Shown: piece after piece, positions 26,066 to 34,412 of the stretch
How positions within the stretch are numbered: position 1 is the first letter of the stretch
How the letters are laid out: each line of letters opens with the position of its first letter
Assembly: GCA_902595555.1 (NCBI GenBank)
Contig: CACJQM010000003.1
Coordinates: 222,579 to 286,578 of the forward strand
Source of the DNA: an uncultured Bacteroidota bacterium
Lineage (GTDB): Bacteria; Bacteroidota; Bacteroidia; Flavobacteriales; Flavobacteriaceae
Direction of reading: 5' to 3'
Length of the DNA stretch: 64,000 nucleotides
Notes under the pieces: model-generated
What the model was told of the DNA's origin: nothing
Databases searched by the model: none
Seen by the model: the letters and a program-made list of their open reading frames with translations, nothing else
Made by a program: the position numbers and the translations under genes

Positions 26066-26830
26066 TCATTCAGTTATTTCGCTTATAAAATCTTTAGTGC
26101 TTTTGACACCATTTCTCTTAATATGTTTTATAAATGCAGAACCGATTATCGCCCCACTGCTATATTTACATGCAGTCTTGTAAGTATTGTTATTTCCAAT
26201 ACCAAAACCTATTAAAAGTGGGTTAGATAATTTCATTTTATTTATTCTCTTGAAATAATCAATTTGATATTCATCAAAGGAGTTTTTGGCACCAGTTACA
26301 CTGTAACTGCTTACCATGTAAATAAATCCATTAGAAAATTTATCAATTTTATAAATTCTTTCATTTGATGTTTGTGGAGTGATTAAAAACATCATATTTA
26401 AGCCAAATTTTTCAGTGATTTTAATGTAATCTTTTTGGTATATTTCAACAGGAAGGTCAGGAACAATTAGTCCATCTATACCAACATTTTTACATCTTCT
26501 ACAAAACTTTTCAAACCCATATTGTAGAATTGGGTTGAAGTAACCCATAATAACAACTGGAATATCGGTTATTGCACGAAGACCATTTAATTGTTTAAAA
26601 AGTAAATCAGTAGTCATACCATTTTTAAGAGCTATTTCAGAGCTTTTTTGAATCGTTGGTCCATCAGCAAGAGGATCACTAAAAGGCAAACCAATCTCAA
26701 TCATTTGAACATTGGAATTATCAAGTTCTTTAATTATTTCAAGGGTATCATCTAATTTCGGAAAACCGGATGTGAAATATATAGACAGAATATCTTTTGA
26801 GTTTTTAAATACTTGATTAATTCTATTCAT
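26066..26830 (-). CDS. trpA: Tryptophan synthase alpha chain
   Basis: The 254-residue TIM barrel has the catalytic Glu in MIEIGLPFSDPLADGP near residue 40 and the Asp in GLIVPDLPVE. GIGNNNTYKT forms the phosphate-binding region. It cleaves indole-3-glycerol phosphate to indole, passed to TrpB. It is the last gene of the trp operon. It is separated from trpB by the sulfatase gene, which it overlaps by 8 bp. Confidence 0.96.
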   Translation of the reverse strand: MNRINQVFKNSKDILSIYFTSGFPKLDDTLEIIKELDNSNVQMIEIGLPFSDPLADGPTIQKSSEIALKNGMTTDLLFKQLNGLRAITDIPVVIMGYFNPILQYGFEKFCRRCKNVGIDGLIVPDLPVEIYQKDYIKITEKFGLNMMFLITPQTSNERIYKIDKFSNGFIYMVSSYSVTGAKNSFDEYQIDYFKRINKMKLSNPLLIGFGIGNNNTYKTACKYSSGAIIGSAFIKHIKRNGVKSTKDFISEITE

Positions 26831-28388
26831 CAGCAGGTTTTAAATAGACTCGTTTACTATTAACATCATATAAATCCCCAGGTGTATATGTAAAACGCTT
26901 GTAAGGTTTTTCTTCAAGTTGTCTACCAAGGCCTTTGGGTTTTTTTCTAGCTTCAGAAATTCTAAAATCAATTTCAATCTTCATAGAATCAATTATCGAT
27001 TTATAACTTTCATCCTTAGCTAAATTTTTATTTTCTTTTTTATCATACTTATGATCATATAATTCATAGCCATATTCTCCTTTCTCTCCCCATTTAACAA
27101 AACGATATCTTTCGGTTTTAATTGAATAACCCTCAACATTATTAAACCTAGTAGCAATCCACCTTGTAAGTGCACTATTCCTAATTTTATAGCTACTATC
27201 ATTGAAAATAGGAACTAGGCTTTTTCCTACAACATGATCAGGAGCTTTTATGCCTGTTAGTTCCATGAGAGTTGGGTACATATCAATAAGTTCAACAGGG
27301 GAATTACTTCTTGTTCCCTTTTTTATTCCTGGACCAGAAAAAATTAGAGGCACTCGAGTTGTTTTTTCGTATAAAGTTTGTTTTTGCCAGTGTCCTTGTT
27401 CCCCTAAATGATAACCATGGTCACTTGAAAATACAATTATAGTATTTTTGTCTAGCCCTGTTTTTTTAAGTTTTTTAATAATTCTTCCAACTTGGGCATC
27501 TAAAAAAGTAATAGTTGCGTAGTATGCTCTTTTGATTTCTTGAGCTTCAGTTTTCTTTAGATCATACTGATTTCCTTTTCCATCTGCTTTGTGCCGTAAT
27601 GAAACAGCAGCAGGCTCGGGTATTGTGTTCAAAAATTCATTATTCATTTGTGGGATATCAATTTCGCTAATGTCATACATATCAAAATATTTTTTTGGAG
27701 CAACATACGGTGTATGAGGTTTAAAAAAACCAACAGCTAAAAAAAAGTTTTGATCTGATTTAGAAAATTTTTCAAGTTGTTCAATTGCTTCAGTAGCTAC
27801 AATTCCATCAGTTTGTTCTTCGTCTGTACCATCTGCTTCTAACCAACTTAAAGTTCCACCATATGCTCTAGTCTTAAGTGTCTTCACTTTGTATTCTTCT
27901 TCCTTATCTCTTCCATATGGATTTATAGTATAATCCCAGGTGTGTATGTCGTCAGCGCTAGATGTTCCAATTGACCCCGGATTGTCATAATGATATATTT
28001 TTCCAATCCGAACTGATTTATAACCCCTTTGTCTAAATCTTTGGCCAAGCGTCACTACATCTGGTATTGTAGTTCGAATATCAACATTCAACTTTGTGTG
28101 TTTCGTTTGATCAGAGTACATTCCAGTCATAAATGAAGCTCTAGATTGTCCACATTGAGGCCATTGAACATGAGCATTTGAAAATAGAGAACCATTGCTA
28201 GCAAGATTGTCAATATTGGGACTTATTACCAGATTATGGTTGTAAGAACCTAAATCACAATTTAAATCGTCAGTCATGATAAATAAGACGTTTTTTTTAT
28301 CAGAGTCTGCACCATCATAATTCTCACTATTACATGAGATAAGATTGATACAAAAAATAGCAGTGTAAATAATAATAAGTTTTCTCAT
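26823..28388 (-). CDS. Lipoprotein sulfatase inside trp operon, atypical FGly motif
   Basis: The 521-residue protein has a lipobox (INLISC) and a sulfatase S1 domain of the iduronate-2-sulfatase-like group. It shows TDDLNCDLGSYNH for metal-binding Asp residues, and VGFFKPHTPYVAPKKYF and SSDHGYHLGEQGHW in the alkaline-phosphatase-like core. The residue to become formylglycine sits in CGQSRASFMTG, where Gln replaces the Pro/Ala of the usual (C/S)x(P/A)xR motif. It overlaps trpA by 8 bp and trpB by 4 bp, so it is translated with them. No SusC/D, sulfatase-maturation or other glycan gene is nearby. Activity is uncertain. Confidence 0.9.
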   Translation of the reverse strand: MRKLIIIYTAIFCINLISCNSENYDGADSDKKNVLFIMTDDLNCDLGSYNHNLVISPNIDNLASNGSLFSNAHVQWPQCGQSRASFMTGMYSDQTKHTKLNVDIRTTIPDVVTLGQRFRQRGYKSVRIGKIYHYDNPGSIGTSSADDIHTWDYTINPYGRDKEEEYKVKTLKTRAYGGTLSWLEADGTDEEQTDGIVATEAIEQLEKFSKSDQNFFLAVGFFKPHTPYVAPKKYFDMYDISEIDIPQMNNEFLNTIPEPAAVSLRHKADGKGNQYDLKKTEAQEIKRAYYATITFLDAQVGRIIKKLKKTGLDKNTIIVFSSDHGYHLGEQGHWQKQTLYEKTTRVPLIFSGPGIKKGTRSNSPVELIDMYPTLMELTGIKAPDHVVGKSLVPIFNDSSYKIRNSALTRWIATRFNNVEGYSIKTERYRFVKWGEKGEYGYELYDHKYDKKENKNLAKDESYKSIIDSMKIEIDFRISEARKKPKGLGRQLEEKPYKRFTYTPGDLYDVNSKRVYLKPADE

Positions 28389-29572
28389 AATTTAAAATAA
28401 TTAATGTAAGTATCTAAGTCTTTATCACCTCTTCCTGAGCAATTAAATATAATAATATCATCTCTATTAAAATCCATTTTCTCTAAAACAGCAAATGCAT
28501 GTGAAGTCTCAATTGCTGGTATTATCCCTTCAATTTGTGAAAGCATAAGCCCCCATTTCATGGCATCATCATCATCAATAGAAATAAATTTTCCTCTATT
28601 TGATTTAAATAAATTTGCATGCATTGGTCCGATTCCAGGATAATCAAGACCTGCTGAAATTGAATAAGGTTCAGTAATTTGACCATCTTGGGTTTGCATT
28701 AGAAGTGTTTTTGAACCATGAATAATTCCTTCTGTACCAAGAATTGATGTTGCTGCACTTTCTCCGCTATTAACTCCTTTTCCAGCAGCTTCTACACATA
28801 CAATTTCAACATCTAAATCATTCAAAAACGGATAGAATAAACCTGCTGCATTACTTCCTCCTCCAACACAAGCAATAACATGAGTAGGTTTGTCCGTTTG
28901 TTCCATTTCAAGTAATTGTTTTTTAGTTTCATATCCAATGACGGATTGAAATCTTGCCACCATGTCAGGGTAGGGATGCGGACCAACTACTGATCCAATG
29001 ATATAGTGTGTATCGATTGGATTTGCAATCCAGTCTCTTATTGCTTCATTTGTTGCATCTTTTAAAGTTCTGCTTCCAGATGTTGCAGATCTGACTTTGG
29101 CACCAAGCATTTTCATTCGTGCTACATTTGGAGCTTGCCTAGAAATATCAATTTCACCCATATAAACAACACACTCAATTCCCATCAAAGCACAAACTGT
29201 AGCAGTAGCAACGCCATGTTGTCCTGCACCAGTTTCAGCAATAATTCTTTTTTTACCTAGCTTTTTTGCCAGTATAATTTGACCAATTGTATTATTTATT
29301 TTGTGAGCTCCTGTATGGCATAGATCTTCTCTTTTTAAATAAATTTTTGTTTTGTATTTGTTGGAGAGTCTCTTAGCAAAATAAAGAGGGGTTGGTCTAC
29401 CGACATAATCAGTTAGTAGTTTATTAAATTCCTTTTTAAAATCAGTTGACTCAGTGATTTTTAAATAGTTTTTTTGTAATTCATCAATATTGGGTTGTAG
29501 CATTTCTGGAATAAATGCACCACCAAAATCACCATAAAACCCATCTTTATTAATATTAAAATTTTCCATCAT
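28385..29572 (-). CDS. trpB: Tryptophan synthase beta chain
   Basis: The 395-residue PLP enzyme has the substrate segment EDLCHTGAHKINNTIGQ with the PLP-binding Lys, and CVGGGSNAAGLFYPF for phosphate binding. It also has the GSVVGPHPYPDMVARFQ block of TrpB type 1. It joins indole and serine to make tryptophan. Its start overlaps trpF by 17 bp and its stop overlaps the sulfatase start by 4 bp. Confidence 0.97.
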   Translation of the reverse strand: MMENFNINKDGFYGDFGGAFIPEMLQPNIDELQKNYLKITESTDFKKEFNKLLTDYVGRPTPLYFAKRLSNKYKTKIYLKREDLCHTGAHKINNTIGQIILAKKLGKKRIIAETGAGQHGVATATVCALMGIECVVYMGEIDISRQAPNVARMKMLGAKVRSATSGSRTLKDATNEAIRDWIANPIDTHYIIGSVVGPHPYPDMVARFQSVIGYETKKQLLEMEQTDKPTHVIACVGGGSNAAGLFYPFLNDLDVEIVCVEAAGKGVNSGESAATSILGTEGIIHGSKTLLMQTQDGQITEPYSISAGLDYPGIGPMHANLFKSNRGKFISIDDDDAMKWGLMLSQIEGIIPAIETSHAFAVLEKMDFNRDDIIIFNCSGRGDKDLDTYINYFKL

Positions 29573-30173
29573 TTAACTTTTTTAAAAATCTTTTAATTTT
29601 TTTTATGTCTTTAATTCCGGGACTAAATTCAAATTTACTATTAATGTCAACAGCAAATAAGTATTCATTTTCTTTTTTAATTTTTTGAATTTTATCAACG
29701 CTTTCCAAATCAATACCACCACTTAGAAAAAACTTCTTTTTTGTAAAATTTTTAATTATGTCCCAATTAAATTTTTTTCCAGATCCTCCATAACTATCTG
29801 AATCAGTATCAAACAAAAAATAATCACAACTTTCCAAATATTCATGTGTTTTATCTATATCAAAATATTGTGAAATTCTGAAAGCTTTTATAACTCTAAC
29901 TAACGTCATCAATTTCTTACACAAGGAGGGACTTTCATCCCCGTGAAGCTGAACGTGAGTAAGATTTTGTTTTAAAATCTTATCCCTTATCGATCCAAAA
30001 TCTTCATTGACAAATACTCCAACCTTGTATTTTGAAATATTTGATAAAATCAGACTTTTATTTTGATATCGGGGTGATTTTTGATAAAAAATAAATCCCA
30101 TAAAATCAATTCCTATTTTATTTAAAAGTTCTATATCTGACTGATTATTTAAACCACAAACTTTAACTTTCAT
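29556..30173 (-). CDS. trpF: Phosphoribosylanthranilate isomerase
   Basis: The 205-residue TIM barrel begins MKVKVCGLNNQSDI (catalytic Cys in KVCG). It contains FMGFIFYQKSPRY, VQLHGDESP, FLFDTDSDSYGGSGKKFNW with the catalytic Asp, and FFLSGGI. It catalyses the third step of tryptophan synthesis. The start overlaps trpC by 11 bp. Confidence 0.96.
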   Translation of the reverse strand: MKVKVCGLNNQSDIELLNKIGIDFMGFIFYQKSPRYQNKSLILSNISKYKVGVFVNEDFGSIRDKILKQNLTHVQLHGDESPSLCKKLMTLVRVIKAFRISQYFDIDKTHEYLESCDYFLFDTDSDSYGGSGKKFNWDIIKNFTKKKFFLSGGIDLESVDKIQKIKKENEYLFAVDINSKFEFSPGIKDIKKIKRFLKKLNDGKF

Positions 30174-30954
30174 CTTTAATTTTTGATATAAAATTTGATA
30201 ATTCCTTGCCCGGATATTGACTTTTCATAAACCTTTCACCAATAAGAAACCCATCAAATCCATGATTTTTTAATTTATTTATTTCAACTGAGCTATTCAG
30301 ACCACTTTCTGATATTTTTGTAAAACTTGATGGTATTTTATTGATTAAATTTAAACTTGTCTCTATGTTTACATCAAAAGTTTTTAAATCTCTGTTATTA
30401 ATACCAATTATATCTATGGTTGAAATTGAAGACTTTTTTAACTCTTCAATTTCATGAATCTCAATTAATACTTCGAGTCCAATACTTTTTGCAAGATTTG
30501 ATAGCTTTAAAATATCAGTATCATTTAGACATGCTGCAATAAGTAAAATAGCATCGGCACCAATAGATTTTGATTCTATTATTTGGTATTCATCAATAAT
30601 AAAATCTTTCCTAAGAAGGGGTAATTTTGTTATTTTTCTTGCCTCTTTGAAATCCTCGACCGATCCATCAAAAAAGTTTTTTTCTGTTAAAAATGAAATT
30701 CCTACTGCTCCACCATATTCATATCCATGAACTATATCTTTAGTGGAGGTCAGATGGTTAATATTGGATTTTGAAGGAGATTTTCTTTTATGTTCAGCAA
30801 TGATTGATATATCCCTATTATTTATACTGTTCACCAAAGAATTGGTCTTGGTATTGAAGTAAATGGATTTTTCTAATTTAGAAATTGAAACATTCTTTTT
30901 TAAGTATTCTAATTCCTCCTTTTTTTTCTTAATAATTTTAGATAAAATATCCAT
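30163..30954 (-). CDS. trpC: Indole-3-glycerol phosphate synthase
   Basis: The 263-residue TIM barrel shows IIAEHKRKSPSKSNIN near residue 50. PLLRKDFIIDEYQI, GINNRDLKTFDVNIE and ISESGLNSS follow, the conserved active-site strands of TrpC. It is a stand-alone enzyme, not fused to TrpF. It starts immediately after trpD with no gap. Confidence 0.96.
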   Translation of the reverse strand: MDILSKIIKKKKEELEYLKKNVSISKLEKSIYFNTKTNSLVNSINNRDISIIAEHKRKSPSKSNINHLTSTKDIVHGYEYGGAVGISFLTEKNFFDGSVEDFKEARKITKLPLLRKDFIIDEYQIIESKSIGADAILLIAACLNDTDILKLSNLAKSIGLEVLIEIHEIEELKKSSISTIDIIGINNRDLKTFDVNIETSLNLINKIPSSFTKISESGLNSSVEINKLKNHGFDGFLIGERFMKSQYPGKELSNFISKIKDES

Positions 30955-31941
30955 TTAAGCATCAATTAAGTTTATTAATGATTTATATGCCTTTCCGCTC
31001 TCAATTGATTCATTAGCAATTGAGATACACTCATCGATTTTTTTGCCAGTAATTGTTTGTATTGCTAGAGAAGAATTAGCAACAACTACATTTTGTTGAC
31101 TTTTAGTTCCCTTTCCAGATAAGATATTCTTAAAAATATTTGCGGATTCTTTGATTGTTTTGCCACCAGAGATTTCTTCACTTGATGTTCTTTGAAAATT
31201 GAAGAATTTTGAGTCTGAAATGATCTCATGATTATTCGTTATTAATTTAAAATCATTAGTTAAAGAGATTTCATCATAACCATCAAGGGCATATACAATT
31301 GAAAAATTAATTTGAGTATTTTTAAAAATGTAACCATAAATCCTTGCTATTTCTAAATTATAAACACCTGTTAGCTGATTATTTGGGCGTGAAGGATTTA
31401 CCAATGGACCTAAAAGATTAAAAAATGTCTTGAATCCTAGCTCTCTTCTTATGGGTGCAACATTTTTCATTGAAGGATGGAATAATGGAGCATGTAAATA
31501 ACATATATTGAATTTGTCTAAACATTTTTTTAAATGAGATTCATTATTAGTGAATTTTACACCTAAATATTCCAAAACATTACTAGATCCACAATTAGAC
31601 GACACACCATAATTTCCATGCTTTGTAACCTTGAATCCTGCGCCAGCTACTACAAAAGATGAAATTGTTGATATATTGAAAGTATCCTTACCATCCCCTC
31701 CAGTACCACAAAGATCTACAGTGTTAAATTGATCAAAATTAATTTTTACACAAAGTTCTAAAAGAGCATCTCTAAATCCTTCCATTTCCTCAATTGATGG
31801 ATTTCTCATTTTAAAAACTGTAATGAATGATGAAATTTCTGAATTTGAATACTTATCGGAGTTAATCTCAATAAGTATTTTTTTTGCCTGATCATAATCA
31901 AGTTTATTGTACTCAAATAAATATTCTAAAATATCTTTCAT
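30955..31941 (-). CDS. trpD: Anthranilate phosphoribosyltransferase
   Basis: The protein has the PRPP/anthranilate site VDLCGTGGDGKDTFNIST, KHGNYGVSSNCGSSNVLE and GPLVNPSRPNNQLTGVY. The track ORF starts at 32019, but that stretch overlaps trpG in another frame. The ATG at 31941 (MKDILEYLFEYNKL) overlaps the trpG stop in ATGA and gives a normal-length TrpD of 328 aa. It catalyses the second step of the pathway. Confidence 0.95.
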   Translation of the reverse strand: MKDILEYLFEYNKLDYDQAKKILIEINSDKYSNSEISSFITVFKMRNPSIEEMEGFRDALLELCVKINFDQFNTVDLCGTGGDGKDTFNISTISSFVVAGAGFKVTKHGNYGVSSNCGSSNVLEYLGVKFTNNESHLKKCLDKFNICYLHAPLFHPSMKNVAPIRRELGFKTFFNLLGPLVNPSRPNNQLTGVYNLEIARIYGYIFKNTQINFSIVYALDGYDEISLTNDFKLITNNHEIISDSKFFNFQRTSSEEISGGKTIKESANIFKNILSGKGTKSQQNVVVANSSLAIQTITGKKIDECISIANESIESGKAYKSLINLIDA

Positions 31942-32498
31942 TTTGCGTCTATCCAGTTTTTTAAAATTTCTTTCCCATATTCTGTTAATATGGATTCCGG
32001 ATGAAATTGTAACCCCCAAACTTTATACTTTTTATGTTTTAATGCCATAACGTTTTTATTTTTATCAAACGCTAGCGGAATCAAAGAATTAGTTAAGTCT
32101 TTTACTATCCAAGAGTGATATCGCCCAACTTTAAATTTCATTGGAATTTTTTTAAATAATTGATCATCAGAAATAACTTGAATTTCAGTTGAAACACCAT
32201 GAAATACATCTTTTAAATTAAATAATTTTGCACCAAAAACTTCACCTATAGCTTGATGTCCAAGGCAAACACCCAAAATACTTTTCTTATTATAAAATCT
32301 TTCAATAATTTCTTTTGTCATACCAGCCTCATTTGGAATTCCTGGGCCAGGAGATATAAGAATCTTGTCAAATTTTTCTACAAATTCAAATGATAGGTTA
32401 TCATTTCTTCTCACAGTAACCTCGCAGTCTAAGTCCTCAAGATAGTGGACTAAATTATATGTGAATGAATCATAATTATCTATAACTATTATTTTCAT
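31938..32498 (-). CDS. trpG: Anthranilate synthase component II (glutaminase)
   Basis: The 186-residue class I glutamine amidotransferase begins MKIIVIDNYDSFTYNLVHYL. It shows LISPGPGIP, the nucleophile Cys in GVCLGHQAIGE, and the catalytic His-Glu in FHPESILT. It supplies ammonia to TrpE. Its start overlaps the trpE stop by 4 bp and its stop overlaps the trpD start by 4 bp. A role in folate synthesis (PabA) is possible for this family, but the operon position favours Trp. Confidence 0.95.
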   Translation of the reverse strand: MKIIVIDNYDSFTYNLVHYLEDLDCEVTVRRNDNLSFEFVEKFDKILISPGPGIPNEAGMTKEIIERFYNKKSILGVCLGHQAIGEVFGAKLFNLKDVFHGVSTEIQVISDDQLFKKIPMKFKVGRYHSWIVKDLTNSLIPLAFDKNKNVMALKHKKYKVWGLQFHPESILTEYGKEILKNWIDAK

Positions 32499-33889
32499 AT
32501 TTCTTCAGCTTTTTCAAGTGCTTTTAAAAGAGCACCAACTTTATTATAAACTTCATTTAATTCATCATTAGGATTGGATTTTGAAACTATGCCAGCCCCT
32601 GCCTGAAAAAACAGATTTTGATTTTTACTTAAAAAGGATCTTATAAGAATTGCATGATTAAAATTATTTTCAAAATCAATAAAACCTATTGCACCACCAT
32701 AAAATGATCTATTGTGTTGTTCATACTTTTCAATGAGTTTCATTGCCATATGTTTAGGGGCTCCAGATAATGTGCCGGCTGGAAATGTACTGCCAATTAT
32801 ATCCTTTGAATGTGACTTTAGTTTACCAGTTACCTTTGAAACAAGATGAATTACATGTGAATAAAATTGAATTTCACGATCTTTTTCAACTTTTACGTCT
32901 GAGCAAGCCCTGCTCAAATCATTTCTAGCCAAATCTACAAGCATCATGTGTTCGCTATTTTCCTTATCATCTTTAAAAAGCTTAAGGGCCTTTTTTGAAT
33001 CCAATAGATCATCTCCTGTCCTTTTGAATGTACCGGCTATAGGATGAATTTCAGCTTTTTGATTATTAATTACTAACTGAGCTTCTGGTGAACTTCCAAA
33101 TATTTTAAAGTTTCCATAGTCAAAATAGAATAAATAAGGTGAGGGGTTTATTGATCTTAATTGTCTATATACACAAAATTCATCTCCAGAAAATTTTTGA
33201 GAAAACTTTCTTGATAATACAATTTGAAACACATCGCCTCTGTAACAATGTTTGATTCCTTTTTTAACAACATCAATAAATTTGTTATCATTTAAATTTG
33301 ATTTTAACTTCCCCTCAAGCTTAATACCATACTCATTTATACTTTTCCTTTTAATTATTTTTTCAATATTATCCAATTGATTTAAGTCTCCTGTTTGACT
33401 TATAAGAGTAGCTTCATTGTTAAATGTATTAATGACAATAATTTCACTGTATAGTGAATAAAATATGTCAGGTATATCATCTCCAAATGATTTATTTTCA
33501 ATTTCAATTTTTTCAAAAAATTTTACAGAGTCATATGTCATGTATCCAAACAAACCTTTTGTCATGAATTTTTTATTTTTTTCTTCTTTTTCAGTTATGA
33601 CAAACTTCTCCATGAAACTTGTAAGCTCTGAAAAAACATTAGAATTTGCATTCAATTTTTTTTCATAATGGCTTTTATCTGGAAATTCAGTGTAAAGAGT
33701 ATTTTTTTTAATGTAAAACTTTGAAATTGGATTGCAGCATATGTATGCATAGCTATTATCCTTTGCTATGTAATCACTACTTTCCAGTAATATTGTGTTT
33801 GAAAATTGATCTCTCAATTTCAAATAAATACTTACTGGTGTCATTGTATCAACAATAATTTTTTTATGTATTGATTTATATTTGTACAT
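32495..33889 (-). CDS. trpE: Anthranilate synthase component I
   Basis: The protein has the LLESSDYIAKDNSYAYICCNP region that holds the Trp feedback site (the Ser of LLESS). The chorismate domain shows KHCYRGDVFQIVLSRKF, IAGTFKRTGDD and GGAIGFIDF. The track start (33937) would translate straight through the intrinsic terminator of the leader (residues 1-16, MNLIKACQCDKPFFFS). The real start is most likely ATG 33889 (MYKYKSIHKK), just after the terminator, giving 464 aa. It is the first structural gene of the operon, under attenuation control. Confidence 0.94.
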   Translation of the reverse strand: MYKYKSIHKKIIVDTMTPVSIYLKLRDQFSNTILLESSDYIAKDNSYAYICCNPISKFYIKKNTLYTEFPDKSHYEKKLNANSNVFSELTSFMEKFVITEKEEKNKKFMTKGLFGYMTYDSVKFFEKIEIENKSFGDDIPDIFYSLYSEIIVINTFNNEATLISQTGDLNQLDNIEKIIKRKSINEYGIKLEGKLKSNLNDNKFIDVVKKGIKHCYRGDVFQIVLSRKFSQKFSGDEFCVYRQLRSINPSPYLFYFDYGNFKIFGSSPEAQLVINNQKAEIHPIAGTFKRTGDDLLDSKKALKLFKDDKENSEHMMLVDLARNDLSRACSDVKVEKDREIQFYSHVIHLVSKVTGKLKSHSKDIIGSTFPAGTLSGAPKHMAMKLIEKYEQHNRSFYGGAIGFIDFENNFNHAILIRSFLSKNQNLFFQAGAGIVSKSNPNDELNEVYNKVGALLKALEKAEEI

Positions 33890-33892
33890 ACT

Positions 33893-33925
33893 AAAAAAAA
33901 AAGGCTTGTCACATTGACAAGCCTT
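33893..33925 (-). terminator. trp attenuator: intrinsic terminator before trpE
   Basis: Read on the minus strand: AAGGCTTGTC - loop AATGT - GACAAGCCTT, a perfect 10-bp stem, followed directly by a run of eight T residues (33900-33893). This is a classical Rho-independent terminator, ending 3 nt before the trpE ATG. Placed between the Trp-rich leader peptide and trpE, it is the transcription stop of the attenuator. Confidence 0.9.
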
Positions 33926-33960
33926 AATTAAATTCATTTAAAACAAAATCAATGTAACAA
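33906..33960 (-). promoter_or_regulatory. trp antiterminator (12-bp alternative duplex)
   Basis: On the transcript, TTGTTACATTGA (33960-33949) pairs with TCAATGTGACAA (33917-33906) over 12 contiguous bases with a single G-U pair. The second strand spans the loop and part of both arms of the terminator, so the two structures exclude each other. The first strand is codons 17-20 of the leader peptide including its stop. A ribosome stalled at the Trp codons leaves it free; one that reaches the stop covers it. Confidence 0.82.
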
Positions 33961-34008
33961 TTTATTAGAATTGATCCACCAACAAAGATTTTGATTTTTT
34001 AATTTCAT
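33949..34008 (-). CDS. trpL: trp operon leader peptide (tandem Trp codons)
   Basis: A 20-codon ORF, too short for the track, encodes MKLKNQNLCWWINSNKLLH and then TGA. Codons 10 and 11 are both TGG (33981-33976). Fifteen bases separate the second Trp codon from the antiterminator arm, about what a stalled ribosome would leave exposed. Lying between a -7 box and the terminator in front of trpE, this is the Trp-sensing element. Low charged tRNA-Trp should stall the ribosome and let transcription continue. Confidence 0.88.
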   Translation of the reverse strand: MKLKNQNLCWWINSNKLLH

Positions 34009-34012
34009 GTCC

Positions 34013-34020
34013 CAAATATA
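34013..34020 (-). promoter_or_regulatory. -7 promoter box of the trp operon
   Basis: The minus strand reads TATATTTG, a perfect TAnnTTTG match and the only such box between the rhodanese gene and the leader. Only 4 nt (GGAC) lie between it and the trpL ATG, so transcription should begin at or next to the A of the start codon. The -33 element is poor: TG rather than TTG at about 20 nt. Confidence 0.55.
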
Positions 34021-34094: not shown

Positions 34095-34412
34095 ATGAAT
34101 CTTAATTCTACCGATTGGAAAAAAAAGAAAGATGCTGATTCCAGCTCTGTGTGTATTGATGTTAGAACAACCGAAGAATTTAATAATGGGCATATTAAAT
34201 CATCAATAAATGTTGACTTTTACGATGCTGCAAAATTTGTTAGCTTTCTTAATGAGTTAGATAAAAAAAAATCATATTATGTCTATTGCAGATCTGGAAA
34301 AAGGAGTTATTCTGCTTGTGAAATCATGAAAGAATTAGGATTTACAAATTTATACAATTTAGAATCTGGATACTTGAATTGGGTTGAATGTAATTATGAA
34401 ACGGTTAGATAA
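34095..34412 (+). CDS. Rhodanese-domain protein (single domain)
   Basis: The 105-residue protein has CIDVRTTEEFNNGHIKSSINVDF and the active-site loop YVYCRSGKRSYSAC, where Cys is the sulfur carrier. Single-domain cytoplasmic rhodaneses transfer sulfane sulfur; the acceptor is unknown. It is transcribed divergently from trp and overlaps the PspC gene by 17 bp. Confidence 0.88.
   Translation: MNLNSTDWKKKKDADSSSVCIDVRTTEEFNNGHIKSSINVDFYDAAKFVSFLNELDKKKSYYVYCRSGKRSYSACEIMKELGFTNLYNLESGYLNWVECNYETVR

Follow-up and report, generated by a model that had tools for sequence, protein, structure and literature searches.

A putative tandem-Trp transcription attenuator upstream of trpE and its conservation across Bacteroidota

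The leader preceding the trp operon in the 64,000-nucleotide stretch of DNA analyzed here (the window) is very probably a ribosome-mediated transcription attenuator that would place the operon under the control of charged tRNA-Trp. All features described in the original prediction were confirmed on the minus strand, and the tandem-Trp attenuator that it proposed is strongly supported by comparison of trpE loci.

Results

The trp operon and its leader

The source genome is a 1.4 Mb AT-rich assembly (83% complete) whose closest named relatives found are Flavobacteriaceae. Its trp genes are arranged in the order trpE-G-D-C-F-B-(sulfatase)-A, all on the minus strand, with a divergent gene located upstream of the leader:

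34095-34412: rhodanese-like gene, upstream of the leader and divergent
32495..33889, minus strand: trpE, anthranilate synthase component I (TIGR00564 trpE_most is the best model with 397.7 bits, below its own cut-off; full-length orthologues)
31938..32498, minus strand: trpG, anthranilate synthase component II (TIGR00566, 175.6 bits)
30955..31938, minus strand: trpD, anthranilate phosphoribosyltransferase (TIGR01245, 303 bits)
30163..30954, minus strand: ORF, probable trpC (indole-3-glycerol-phosphate synthase), named from sequence and operon position only
29556..30173, minus strand: ORF, probable trpF, named from sequence and operon position only
28385..29572, minus strand: trpB (PF00291 and position)
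26823-28388, minus strand: sulfatase gene between trpB and trpA (PF00884 and PF16347)
26066..26830, minus strand: trpA (PF00290, 242 bits)

The sulfatase gene inside the operon displays short overlaps on its trpB and trpA sides and, by its position, would fall under the Trp attenuator. In genomes G014, G017, G001, G021, G010 and G007, a homologue is present on the contig that carries trpE, some 4-6 kb downstream of it, whereas in G016 and G022 the homologue and trpE are on separate contigs.

Since the rhodanese-like gene is divergent, the leader must have its own promoter. The following elements were mapped ahead of trpE:

34013..34020, minus strand: -7 promoter box TATATTTG (TAnnTTTG), separated from the leader ATG by 4 nt; the predicted start is the A of this ATG
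33949..34008, minus strand: leader ORF MKLKNQNLCWWINSNKLLH*, 19 aa (ATG 34008-34006, stop TGA 33951-33949)
33987..33993, minus strand: region 1, CAAAATC, 5' strand of the protector helix (codons 6-8), from the minimum free energy fold of the ribosome-free leader
33976..33981, minus strand: tandem Trp codons 10-11 (UGGUGG), the putative sensor
33948..33960, minus strand: region 2, antiterminator strand TTGTTACATTGAT, made of the last three sense codons, the stop codon and one more base
33944..33950, minus strand: region 1', GATTTTG, the 3' partner in the protector helix, which overlaps the leader stop and extends past it
33906..33918, minus strand: region 3 GTCAATGTGACAA, terminator loop and inner portions of both arms, the stretch targeted by region 2
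33901..33925, minus strand: intrinsic terminator hairpin AAGGCTTGTC-AATGT-GACAAGCCTT, -15.1 kcal/mol
33893..33900, minus strand: terminator T8 tract, 3 nt (AGT) before the trpE ATG at 33889

The 19-residue ORF with adjacent Trp codons and the hairpin with its T8 tract 3 nt before trpE were thus found where they had been predicted, as was the distance of 15 nt between the end of Trp codon 11 and the duplex arm. The leader end including its stop codon does serve as the antiterminator strand: the alternative duplex between TTGTTACATTGA (33960-33949) and TCAATGTGACAA (33917-33906) comprises the proposed 12 bp with one G-U, or 13 bp with an additional G-U, and a helix as stable was obtained in only 2 of 10,000 dinucleotide shuffles of the upstream strand (-19.1 kcal/mol as compared to a mean of -8.3 kcal/mol).

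A predicted leaderless start

The -7 box had been missed in the original prediction. Its distance to the leader start codon is exactly 4 nt in all ten genus loci carrying the box (L001-L010), and in L011-L014 a degenerate box can be read by eye at the same place, followed by a GTG start. In Flavobacterium johnsoniae, the last G of the -7 element is located at -5 (PMC6847099), which combined with a 4-nt gap sets +1 on the first base of the leader start codon. Other genera also show gaps of 4-5 nt at some loci (e.g. L016, L021, L035, L041, L049, L059, L060 and L100), other gaps being longer, and such short gaps are a minority elsewhere in the genome: in a control sample consisting of 20 stretches of 20 kb plus the window (395 ORFs, 464 kb), they account for 5 of the 67 boxes found within 60 nt of a first ATG. 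Leaderless mRNAs were measured at 5.5% in F. psychrophilum (PMC9723704), and Sinorhizobium provides an earlier case of a leaderless trp leader (PMC7298713). The constant gap in the ten genus loci suggests that the leader mRNA is probably leaderless, its transcript start being predicted from the consensus box; the missing Shine-Dalgarno site would then probably be answered by the leaderless start. GTG replaces ATG at the leader start position in seven genus members (L003, L004, L005 and L011-L014), and, should transcription begin where predicted, GTG starts situated 4 nt after the box imply that leaderless mRNAs are initiated at GUG.

Conservation upstream of trpE

A search for WW codons in relatives had been suggested together with the original prediction. 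Using TrpE, we gathered 22 loci from the window genome and related genomes (the genus sample comprising 23 genomes) plus 80 named loci drawn from Flavobacteriales, Cytophagales, Chitinophagales, Sphingobacteriales and Bacteroidales, the latter being the best-scoring loci and not a random choice. A leader with at least two adjacent Trp codons is kept upstream of trpE in 97 of these 102 loci, or in 97 of the 100 with enough upstream DNA. In the two short loci, L015 and L066, the sequence upstream of trpE extends for no more than 53 and 43 nt, two loci from Pedobacter (L084 and L088) carry a W-L-W leader followed by a strong terminator, and L046 is the sole locus of the 102 to lack a Trp leader despite enough upstream DNA. 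Two loci carry more than one such unit: L018 exhibits two WWW leader-terminator units in tandem, from about -307 to -93 relative to the aligned trpE start, and L097 also displays an apparent tandem pair (WLWW, then W-S-W-R-W).

A terminator core was detected in 95 of the 97 WW loci, and in L033 and L049 the hairpin is evident by eye. In the window genus this hairpin lies 5-19 nt from the trpE ATG, a proximity that would also suit translational control, in which the hairpin beside the trpE start gates ribosome loading on trpE and not the end of transcription. We consider this reading very unlikely: among the scored loci the stem is succeeded by a T-rich run, and the distance between hairpin and trpE ranges from 5 to more than 200 nt across the phylum, so variable that start sequestration cannot be the shared mechanism.

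Co-variation of the antiterminator

The other check put forward with the original prediction concerned co-variation of the alternative duplex. For each locus, we took the best uninterrupted helix between the segment following the Trp codons and the terminator. The cores of these helices change wholly between groups while complementarity is kept:

ACATTGA/TCAATGT: the clade of the window
TGTCGC/GCGACA: L006-L010
TCGTGA/TCACGA: most Flavobacteriaceae
GAGAAGC/GCTTCTC: L019 and L022
GTGAACAGC/GCTGTTCAC: L074 and L078

In a set holding a single representative of each distinct loop (n=66), region 2 paired better with its own loop than with the loops of others (mean -11.7 against -8.2 kcal/mol after permutation, z -12), and none of 5000 permutations went below -9.4 kcal/mol. 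When compared to shuffles across loci, region 2 gave a Fisher value of 1e-28. The centre of the target coincides with that of the hairpin (median offset 0.25 nt), and the target therefore corresponds to the loop and the inner parts of the arms, a feature on which the original prediction had not remarked. In some Chitinophagales loci (e.g. L095, L102, L103 and L105) it is the upstream arm that is paired instead, in an E. coli-like manner. Column-based pair counting on the genus alignment A2 was dropped in favor of this whole-strand permutation, since region 2 is shifted by three nt relative to region 3 between sub-clades and the columns are not homologous pairs.

In an AT-rich region where short ORFs and hairpins are common, a chance ORF could also stand ahead of an ordinary terminator belonging to the upstream gene. 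The upstream rhodanese-like gene is however divergent, leaving no upstream transcript for this terminator to end, and both the conservation and the co-variation extend phylum-wide; we assign this reading a virtually negligible probability.

The protector helix

The window leader displays, in its own ribosome-free fold, a weak, AU-rich protector pairing that the original prediction had overlooked. Taken alone, the helix of the window does not stand out from shuffles (p 0.24); over a set of 83 representatives, pairing between the leader portion that runs through the Trp codons and the spacer following region 2 gave a z of -12.8, a value reached in 0 of 2000 permutations. This protector stem is the consensus stem of Rfam RF01692. 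It encloses region 2, which is not used as one of its strands. The claim that there is no separate region 2, in the sense of an upstream hairpin competing with the antiterminator, was consequently wrong, the protector helix being present in the window fold and co-varying phylum-wide. What is absent is only the direct 1:2 pairing known from E. coli: when looked for across loci, no such pairing with the antiterminator core emerged (Fisher p 0.31).

Switching and proposed mechanism

Equilibrium folding of full-length leaders produced no switch in most loci, the terminator being favored in nearly all of them even with a stalled ribosome (mean P 0.92; 0.68 for the window). When transcripts of 95 loci were folded in truncated form, at lengths where the 3' arm is just emerging, and the leading edge of the ribosome was assumed to lie 13 nt away from the first base of the A-site codon, the mean antiterminator probability peaked at 0.89 with the ribosome stalled at the first Trp codon, as compared to 0.41 for ribosome-free transcripts and 0.07 with the ribosome at the stop codon. 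That the terminator wins at equilibrium while truncated transcripts switch indicates, in these folding models, that antitermination is likely kinetic.

The anatomy and its conservation can be read directly from the loci; the three states and the response to Trp that these sequences suggest would be as follows. Transcription would start at, or within about 1 nt of, the leader AUG, and the ribosome would load straight onto the 5' end without a Shine-Dalgarno site. With no ribosome, region 1 would pair with region 1', region 2 would be held inside the hairpin and the terminator would mostly form. When Trp is scarce, a ribosome pausing at Trp codon 10 or 11 would cover region 1, leaving region 2 (transcript nt 49-61) beyond its edge and free to pair with the emerging terminator loop; were this pairing to occur before the 3' arm is fully out, the polymerase would read into trpE. 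When Trp is plentiful, the ribosome at the stop codon would cover region 2, the terminator would fold and transcription would stop 3 nt before trpE. Neither TrpR (PF01371) nor the T-box (RF00230) was detected in any of 40 genomes, and the control genomes did respond to both.

A histidine counterpart

The same layout, with His codons, was found before hisG in relatives (14 loci, L131-L144, Fisher 6e-11). These leaders are His-rich, and the terminators behind them show complementarity of their 5' arm and loop to the end of the leader, the antiterminator target leaning towards the upstream arm in contrast to the trpE leaders. We could not detect hisG in the window genome (G000, 83% complete) or in most genus members, whose assemblies are incomplete, which suggests histidine auxotrophy in part of the genus.

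The hisG leaders bear on a further explanation of the trpE leaders. A short Trp-containing leader peptide is present, and could in principle arrest its own ribosome upon sensing free Trp, as does TnaC, in place of codon stalling at uncharged tRNA. Over the 97 loci, however, it is the W run that is conserved phylum-wide, the remainder of the peptide varying freely, while the C-terminus of the peptide tracks RNA pairing: in many Flavobacteriaceae, the antiterminator strand consists of the last Ser codon and the stop (TCG TGA), and as this strand pairs with the terminator the C-terminal residues are explained by RNA pairing. Before hisG, moreover, His runs take the place of Trp runs. Peptide arrest is accordingly regarded as extremely unlikely, and codon stalling at uncharged tRNA as the preferred reading.

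Discussion

An Rfam element that has received little study, and whose model reaches its cut-off in 15 of 198 phylum genomes (all in the family of the window among the matches listed), is here extended to nearly all sampled Bacteroidota trpE loci, with an anatomy now resolved and co-varying across the phylum. We lean slightly towards a broader proposal, namely that Bacteroidota share for both Trp and His an attenuator layout unlike that of E. coli, in which a leader-end strand within a protector hairpin would act by kinetic capture of the terminator loop, and that in streamlined marine flavobacteria the leader mRNA would begin at its own AUG or GUG, allowing initiation without a ribosome-binding site that is timed by the start of transcription. 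Because ribosome-mediated attenuation needs a ribosome close behind the polymerase, its wide occurrence speaks for a coupling of transcription and translation at these leaders, in a phylum largely devoid of Shine-Dalgarno sites, and the leaders would be ready reporters for a test of this coupling.

Comparison with known systems

The trp attenuator of E. coli shares with the window element the tandem Trp codons and the logic of protector, antiterminator and terminator. In E. coli, region 2 is located downstream of the stop codon, pairs directly with region 1 and targets the upstream arm of the terminator, whereas in the window it straddles the stop codon, lies inside the protector hairpin and targets the loop. 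The Rfam model RF00513 Trp_leader scores 23.4 bits in the window against a gathering score of 41.

In an unrelated phylum, the leader RNA of Sinorhizobium meliloti trpL (rnTrpL/peTrpL, PMC7298713) has its 5' end at the ATG of the leader ORF, as predicted for the window, the end being measured there and predicted here; the terminated trpL RNA also acts in trans (PMC7298713). Among flavobacteria, the transcriptome of F. psychrophilum yielded clues to leader-peptide attenuation and structured 5' regions before amino-acid operons (PMC9723704). The conserved elements named in the main text of that article include hisG and pheA, trp not being named there, and the leaders are reported in it as clues, with no resolved anatomy. 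The leaders of this sort known to Naville and Gautheret (2010) were still confined to Proteobacteria, Actinobacteria and a new case of their own in Firmicutes, and an earlier description in Bacteroidetes may exist in Lopatovskaya et al. 2010 (cited in PMC4833913).

The window element is not new as a kind, being a diverged member of the kind represented by RF01692 Bacteroid-trp, listed by Weinberg et al. 2010 (PMC2864571). Both share the gene, the position, the Trp codons in the leader and the protector stem across these codons. RF01692 gave no match on the correct strand of the window (19.8 bits on the plus strand against a gathering score of 49 bits); its threshold is passed by L032, L056 and L016, the last belonging to the family of the window and matching upstream of trpE with 64.5 bits. 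The structure modelled in RF01692 stops at the 5' arm of the terminator and is devoid of the loop antiterminator. What our sequence comparison adds to it is the breadth of the element, an antiterminator directed at the loop, a protector helix enclosing region 2 and a probable leaderless start.
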